A stretch of 34,295 bases of DNA from Bacteroidota bacterium (GTDB lineage: Bacteria > Bacteroidota > Bacteroidia > Sphingobacteriales > Sphingobacteriaceae). Under the pieces are notes generated by a model. That model saw only the letters and a list, made by a program, of their open reading frames with translations, searched no databases and had not been told where the DNA came from. Position 1 is the stretch's first letter. Each line of letters starts with the position of its first letter. The stretch covers positions 1 to 34,295 of the forward strand of contig VGGW01000006.1 of assembly GCA_016868395.1 (NCBI GenBank), given 5' to 3'. Positions 3,051-12,283 of the stretch are shown here, piece by piece. The position numbers and the translations under genes were made by a program.

Positions 3051-3468
3051 CTAAATTAATCGAAAACACCCTCCTTAAAATATGAGAAAGCTTTCAGGCT
3101 TCGAATATTTCAAATTTTCCTATCTCCAAAGATAAGTTGTTTTGGGCTTAGAGAAAGCATTTTAAACACAAAGGGAGATTATCATGATCTTATATCCTGA
3201 ATTTATCAATCCAATAATATTATTCAAGTTAATATCAGCGGTCTGCTTATTAGCAAAAAGACCAAATTATAATTTTTGCCTTGTTTGAAATCGGTTTTAC
3301 CCACTGCATACGGCTAAAGTTGGTTTTAGAATCACCGGTTTTCTTGTTTTCGTAAACGGAGTACAGGGCATCACTTCATTGAATTCATTGTTTTTATTTT
3401 TCAATTCCTGTTCTGATTTTAAATAAATGACAAAAATTTCTGGATTTTGTCCATTTAAAGATTTTGAC

Positions 3469-4194
3469 TTAAACCGAGTTCGACATGAGGGGCTAAAAAT
3501 ATCCTTTTAATGGATTTCATGACGCTCCGAACTAGTGTGACTTGATTTTTGAAAGTAATATCCGGGTGCTTTCGTTTCGAGCAGTCCTTTACTACGGAAT
3601 ATTTCCGGAAAGAAATTATACCTTATTTTAGATCATCCATAGCCGGAAGATACCTGCTAAACCAAGCAGGTTCTCGATATTTTGAGAATGAAGTTTCGAG
3701 AGGAGATTCGGGTTCAGATTGGAAATAGCGTAGGTTCTCGCTTCGCAATAATGACCACTCATCAGGTCTGGAAAATAGATTGGGGCTCAGATAGAAAACC
3801 AAAGAGGTTCTAGCCTGAGCGAGATTCGATTGTTATCGGATGACAAGGCATAAGGTGGGGTAAGGAGATTCCCTTTGGTCTTACAAAGAATCATTTAGCA
3901 CTTATTGTTATTGTTAAAATGAGGGGGTCGCGGCCGCCTATCTATTGGCCAGTCATGGCATCTTGGCTGACGGTCCATTCCGATGGGAAACAGCACCGGG
4001 TTAAGCAAACCCGGGTTGCAGCCCTATCTTTTTTGCCATCCTGATTCTCATGACAAGGATTCAATTTTCAGCAAAAAAATAGTACAGAACACGGGGCCGG
4101 AATAAGCGAGGAGCAACAAACCCTGCTTTCCAAATACTGAGCAAAATAAGCAGGCTAGGGCAAGATCTATTATCGATCTCAGGTTAACTTAAAA
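3469..4194 (+). repeat. Copy A of dispersed MITE-like non-coding element, interrupted and degenerate
   Basis: Aligns by eye along most of its length to the reverse complement of 11807-12283 (e.g. GCAGTCCTTTACTACGGAATATTTCCGG, AGCCGGAAGATACCT, GCAGCCCTATCTTTTTTGCC, AGAACACGGGGCCGG, AACAAACCCTGCTTTCC); ends TTAAACCGAGTTCGACAT / TATCGATCTCAGGTTAA. Confidence 0.8.
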
Positions 4195-11783: not shown

Positions 11784-11806
11784 GTACAGTTAAAAGAAAG
11801 GCAAAG

Positions 11807-12283
11807 TTATTAAAATAACCTGAGTTCGATATAAACAATCTAATTAATGTGAGATTGATAAAAGATATTGCCGGGTCTTGATTATTTTTCTCAGATAATG
11901 GAAAGCAGGGTCTGTTGCTCCCGACCCCGTGTTCTGCCCTATTTTTTGCAGGAAATGGAATCCTTATCCTAAGATTCAGTAAGGCAAAAAAAGATAGGGC
12001 TGCCACCCGGTTTTGCTTAGCAGGATCTGTGCTTCTATTACCGGACTGCCCGTACCGATGAAACACAACAGCGGGTAAACTAAACCTTGCCGAAGGAGGT
12101 ATCTTCCGGCGATGGAGCATTTGAGATAAGGTACCATTTTTTACCGGAAATACTCCGTAGGAAAGGACTGCACGAAGCGATAGCACGCAGGGATTGCTTT
12201 CCAAAATCAAATCAATGGTCTCCGGAGCAATAGGAGATCCATCAAAAGGATAATTTCTAATATCGAACTGAGGTTAAAATAAG
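11807..12283 (-). repeat. Copy B of dispersed MITE-like non-coding element (more intact)
   Basis: Ends TAACCTGAGTTCGATAT (11816-11832) and ATATCGAACTGAGGTTA (12260-12276) form a TIR; internal GGAAAGCA (11900-11907)/TGCTTTCC (12195-12202) inverted pair; homologous to 3469-4194 in opposite orientation. Confidence 0.82.

Follow-up and report, generated by a model that had tools for sequence, protein, structure and literature searches.

The stretch of DNA analysed here (hereafter the window; 34,295 nts) belongs to a Daejeonella-like Sphingobacteriaceae MAG (G000) and carries nrnA (minus strand; DHH/DHHA1 domains) next to ndk. The two genes are separated by 581 bp, instead of the 582 bp given in a first-pass annotation, which had also sought relatives of the host among Cytophagales when the host belongs to Sphingobacteriales. 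Within this spacer lies a 457-bp element, copy B (11818-12274, plus strand), with limits set by its terminal inverted repeats (TIRs) and target site duplication (TSD) and by alignment with about 60 copies from the same genome. The 15-bp left TIR ACCTGAGTTCGATAT (11818-11832, plus strand) shares its first 13 bases with the IS982 element L119, and the right TIR (12260-12274, minus strand) was located by inverted-repeat comparison together with the TSD. The terminal inverted pair can be extended to 24 nt with 83% complementarity. Both ends are flanked by TAAAATA, exactly repeated at 11811-11817 and 12275-12281. The inverted ends noticed earlier at 11816-11832 and 12260-12276 are present, as is an inner inverted pair, GGAAAGCA/TGCTTTCC; the inverted-ended unit built on them stands, its length of about 475 bp being reduced to 457 bp by the TSD. 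At 11816-11860, and in about half of the copies of the genome, an extra outer 30 bp carries a second terminal repeat external to an older one (TAACCTGAGTTCGATATAAACAATCTAATT + TAGGTGAGATTGATA); in many copies the end of the element thus looks doubled.

Between its TIRs, copy B is composed of two arms, both assigned to the Flavo-1 type as detailed below. The left arm (11894-12028, minus strand), aligned to sister copies only, would be a diverged module in reversed orientation; it includes a hairpin GCCCTATTTTTTGC/GCAAAAAAAGATAGGGC (11936-12000) with compensatory changes over 92 copies. The right arm (12074-12216, plus strand) is a module followed by a GCTTTCCAAAA tail, and its stem (12085-12166, plus strand) is composed of CCTT/AAGG, a 1x1 G-A, CC/GG, a 3x3 loop (GAA/GGA in the family consensus) and an apical hairpin. 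The spacer separating the modules (12029-12073) measures 37-51 nt in 24 element copies, and all 24 two-arm copies are arranged head-to-head. Two copies of another genome (L039 and L050 of G009) carry a GC-rich insert of about 60 bp (AGATAGCGCATGCGTGTCGCG...) in this spacer.

We compared the locus with its orthologues. The genes nrnA and ndk are adjacent in 18 of the 19 other genomes of the genus, and all 18 spacers are element-free (116-211 bp), with TAAAATA not duplicated. Close relatives carry a single copy of the target, GTTATTAAAATAA, which reads GCAAAGTTATTAAAATAA(A/C)... These empty spacers with a single target argue that copy B was inserted in the host lineage and not lost elsewhere. 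To define the duplication at family level, the element end was fixed at ACCTNAG... and left and right flanks of 41 copies were compared with shuffled pairings. Flank agreement peaked at exactly 7 bp (z 6.5; 11/41 copies exact), all other lengths giving z < 3, and the target consensus was TANNNTA. The alignment of copies for which the first-pass annotation had called thus yielded 15-bp TIRs and a 7-bp TANNNTA duplication over 41 copies.

The insertion lies about 34 bp upstream of the nrnA start codon (11802-11818), beside a conserved TAACTTTG which looks like a Bacteroidota -7 box. The DNA upstream of this putative box has been displaced by copy B, and the insertion may affect how nrnA is expressed. 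For ndk, the putative promoter (TTTG...TACTTTTG-like) seems untouched.

Copy B is one of many. A search with a profile of 30 copies, carried out on sampled stretches covering 1.16 Mb of the 2.99-Mb host genome, retrieved 62 distinct elements; scaled to the whole genome, this gives about 160 copies or about 2% of host DNA. In BLAST of the host genome with the copy B region, 40 full or near-full copies were scored among 191 first-look candidates; the TIR pattern was found at 229 sites compared to 46 for a reversed control, and right-arm matches amounted to 129 genome-wide. The number of distinct elements and the TIR pattern count greatly exceed random expectation. Median pairwise identity in the family is 80%, and nearest neighbours share about 88% and at most 92%. 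As judged by this divergence, the copies are old. The family looks quiescent in the host genome, since no near-identical copies were seen and no transposase was found. Several host contigs (C12, C15, C17, C27, C40 and C48) end within, or a few hundred bases from, family copies. The host assembly is probably fragmented by the repeat, and the copy number given above may be an underestimate.

No copy was found inside called genes in the 1.16-Mb sample. Tandem, convergent and divergent gaps are all occupied, with a modest enrichment of convergent ones (15/52 versus 57/415, p 0.008), as expected if promoter-proximal insertions are purged; copy B departs from this bias by its place in a divergent promoter region. 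A protein-coding element was rejected: the arms of different copies differ by indels of 14 and 16 bp, which are not multiples of 3, and the mean longest stop-free stretch (77.7 aa versus 67.0 in shuffles) showed no excess of open reading frame. TIRs, a TSD of fixed length, short size, multiple copies and the lack of a transposase gene are together those of a MITE. The first-pass annotation had considered that its proposal would fall if further copies or consistent ends were missing or if a coding signal appeared; copies are numerous, ends are consistent and coding signal is absent.

The same annotation had pointed to a second, diverged copy with matching ends in the opposite orientation, and this proved correct. 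Copy A (3470-4186, minus strand) was recovered by the family profile, its two arms matching at 4189-3996 and 3664-3468, and its ends differ from the TIR by 2-3 mismatches. It is flanked by TGACTTA (3465-3471) and TAACTTA (4185-4191), identical at 6 of 7 positions. Its middle (~3665-3995) is foreign, having been replaced by other repeats; copy A is a rearranged member of the family, and an older one. Long composite forms were observed at several places (window 3665-3995; L114:3828-4962; L118, L086, L065, L089), in which the MITE left arm is followed by another module (GAGCTGTTTTCCATCGGATTGGACAGTCCGCC...); they also hold short REP-like hairpins such as ATTCCAGCGAAAGCTGGAACC.

By DNA match the family was detected in 12 of 41 genomes, namely the host, ten other members of the genus and, as a weak match, one genome outside it. 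A pattern scan of GTDB genomes gave matches only in Daejeonella, Sphingobacteriales and related MAGs. Among 295 genomes of the class, the core model matched, besides the host, just two genomes, both from a single further genus of the host family.

We next consider the interior. Flavo-1 (Rfam RF01705) is a motif described by Weinberg et al. in 2010 (PMC2864571), typed by Rfam as 'Gene; sRNA' with function unknown, and ranked with the most abundant sRNA families of bacteria (PMC9029176). Known Rfam RNAs gave no match in the window at gathering threshold, and only low-scoring chance matches at E 10; the Flavo-1 model itself misses copy B at both settings. We therefore used three covariance models: R1, built from MITE cores; R2, free of MITE sequences, from 10 Flavo-1 copies of another genus, two of which had first been found with R1; and R3, from 15 copies found solely by Rfam's model in G198, excluding both MITE sequences and copies found with R1. 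R1 picked loci in another genus, of which L220 is an Rfam Flavo-1 (52.8 bits for a cut-off of 42), others scoring 30-33 bits. In the reverse direction, a search of 1.16 Mb of host DNA with R2 gave 78 hits at E<1. Of these, 74 fell inside MITE copies, which cover 2% of the sequence searched, and R3 reproduced this result. The right arm of copy B was matched by R2 (E 0.014 in 1.16 Mb) and R3 (29.2 bits, E 1.7e-5 in 701 bp). Its left arm was below detection with both models and is assigned to the Flavo-1 type via sister copies; in these, the best E values for the left arm reach 1.7e-7 with R2 and 5e-6 with R3. Copy A carries one module at 3549-3676 (minus strand; R1, E 1.4e-14) and another at 3999-4137 (plus strand; R2, E 2e-4).

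MITE and Flavo-1 modules share a common anatomy. With TAAACC and GGACTG as conserved sides, stems of 4 and 2 bp are separated by a 1x1 mismatch and followed by a 3x3 GNA/GNA loop (mostly GAA/GGA in Flavo-1 and in the MITE family consensus) and an apical hairpin; the GCTTTCCAAAA tail, also shared, falls outside the 76 positions of the Rfam model. Rfam's model has three hits in the host genome, among them L276, a bridging copy in which a bona fide Flavo-1 sits in an element with a MITE-like left arm and tail. Sequence and structure together indicate that both arms of the element are diverged Flavo-1 homologues. The earlier suggestion of a structured ncRNA is thus borne out in part only: the arms are structured and homologous to an Rfam family.

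Flavo-1 is itself multi-copy, with at least 71 hits in G198 and 40 in G456. RF01705 copies are solo and mostly devoid of TIR and TSD, in Flavobacterium-like and Pedobacter-like genomes with 40-71 hits each; the MITE modules, in contrast, form a head-to-head pair carried by a transposon, and their stems have diverged beyond the reach of the Rfam model. Similar doublets occur in genus g24, and G198 carries a tandem array of head-to-head Flavo-1 doublets with a direct-repeat unit of about 340 bp (L346:472-1802). In G456 (L289-L308), solo copies show exchangeable apical hairpins (GGCGGGGTTCGCC, GTCTCGTTTCTTTAACGAGAC or T/A-rich) on a constant base, and flanks conserved beyond Rfam's model. At one orthologous spacer (L310-L328), some Flavobacterium-like genomes have Flavo-1, whereas in others the spacer is short or occupied by another repeat (AAATTCCAAATTCCAA...); this presence/absence polymorphism of a solo copy is compatible with insertion or loss alike.

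Are the hairpins maintained as RNA or as DNA? The arms could function as RNAs, either as Flavo-1 sRNA genes or in cis-regulation, with the transposon as their vehicle and the RNA role as the reason for their retention. The Rfam classification as sRNA speaks for this, as do the conservation of structure with covariation and the cross-species conservation of the Flavo-1-type core, which is higher than anywhere else in the element. An RNA made from one strand should give an excess of G-U pairs. In the Flavo-1 stems of G198, 98% of cells are paired, with 33 two-sided changes compared to 10.6 in shuffles, and the only single-sided change in 150 cells is a G-U. In the MITE stems, 55 G-T and 58 A-C deviations were counted among 3,715 cells. 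Near-pure Watson-Crick covariation, with G-U almost absent in the former and not above A-C in the latter, is better explained by a hairpin in DNA than by an RNA made from one strand, although post-insertion decay would also equalise G-T and A-C. Two opposed copies of the module in each element, and the occupation of tandem, convergent and divergent gaps alike apart from the modest convergent excess, also argue against RNA function. Transcriptomics of F. psychrophilum speaks on both sides (PMC9723704): in favour of RNA, a number of Flavo-1 hits overlap structured 5′ regions; against it, hits fall indifferently sense or antisense of transcribed regions, many lying outside them. We consider RNA function unlikely as the reason for keeping the arms. 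Since conservation of the core exceeds that of much of the remaining element, the doublet probably either matters for amplification or is tolerated as inert. As DNA structures, the hairpin arms would be maintained in those copies that give rise to new ones, and Flavo-1 would not be a dedicated RNA gene but a hairpin that travels with the element as a passenger or helps it.

The source of mobility was sought among transposases of the genus. A transposase domain search revealed two intact IS982 elements, in G004 and G008 (NCBIfam IS982, E about 1e-71). IS982 elements are about 1 kb long, with 5′-AC ends and variable direct repeats, of 7 bp in Bacteroides IS1187 (PMC7335449). The inverted ends of the two elements, detected without any MITE reference (20 and 26 nt; TAACGTGAGTTCGGGTTAAG and TTCTTATTAACCTGAGTTCGATTAAT), contain TAACGTGAGTTCG and TAACCTGAGTTCGAT, the ends of congeneric MITEs and of those of the host. 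The MITE ends, ACCTGAGTTCG/ACGTGAGTTCG, begin with 5′-AC and are shared with both IS982 elements; the match extends over 11-13 terminal bases, and congeneric MITE copies read AACGTGAGTTCGATAT. A permissive shuffle test of TIR matching to IS982 gave 4/150 and 44/150; being too permissive, it was replaced by this comparison with the IS elements' own inverted ends, which covers the only two IS982 elements available. With its TIRs, 7-bp TSD and empty site, and congeneric IS982 elements of the same TIR, copy B is a non-autonomous mobile element, one of the options listed in the first-pass annotation.

No match to the IS982 transposase (PF13612) was obtained in the host MAG (320 contigs, 96.75% complete), and the parental element is for this reason deduced from congeners; the host gene may have been lost, left unassembled or externally supplied. 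The MITE interior gave no profile match to the IS982 elements L119 and L120. Origin by internal deletion of an IS was rejected, the interior being Flavo-1-like instead. These two absences would also suit mobilisation by a transposase of another family, with convergent IS982-like ends. Against this stand the first 11-13 bases common to two independent IS982 elements, the AC start of IS982 ends and the 7-bp repeats of IS1187, together with the precedent of an IS982-derived MITE in Cardinium, of the same phylum (PMC9769881); mobilisation outside IS982 appears quite improbable. Still further from likely is a REPIN-like system with hairpin pairs moved by a Y1 transposase (RAYT) and incidental TIR and TSD: the presence of a hairpin module in inverted pairs and, elsewhere, alone, at high intergenic copy number, does resemble REP/REPIN, but DDE-type TIRs with a fixed 7-bp TSD are foreign to REPINs, and RAYT mobilisation was rejected as no Y1 transposase was found in the host, in the MITE-rich G017 or in the Flavo-1-rich G198.

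Taken together, these results make copy B very probably a MITE of IS982 type with a cargo of a head-to-head Flavo-1 module pair. A Flavo-1 doublet that already existed would have been enclosed by IS982 ends and would then have multiplied along with the genus. Recognition of the TIRs would be due to a transposase of IS982 type supplied in trans, which would have placed the element at AT-rich TANNNTA targets in intergenic DNA. The nearest parallel is MITECca01 of Cardinium, likewise non-autonomous, with IS982-type terminal repeats and high copy number in Bacteroidota. It measures about 240 bp and has copies of its parental IS in the same genome (PMC9769881), in contrast to the 457 bp of copy B and a host genome where the IS was not found; the passages that describe it mention no Flavo-1 link, unlike the Flavo-1 pair inside copy B. 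The MITEs of Porphyromonas gingivalis, including BrickBuilt (PMC4596501), are also Bacteroidota MITEs with internal repeats, and come from a different host order.

As a MITE, copy B is ordinary; its cargo is unusual, and a MITE spreading Flavo-1 pairs appears to be undescribed. In this lineage, part of the Flavo-1 'RNA family' is mobile repeat DNA. One could extend this, tentatively and beyond what we would regard as probable, to Flavo-1 as a whole: a DNA-level hairpin repeat of Bacteroidota, with the doublet as mobilisable unit, spread by capture between IS ends such as those of IS982 and with stems conserved as cruciform or single-strand DNA substrates. A mobile DNA hairpin offers a concrete, testable alternative for Flavo-1, listed as sRNA since 2010, and a match to an RNA family in Bacteroidota may flag a transposon insertion.
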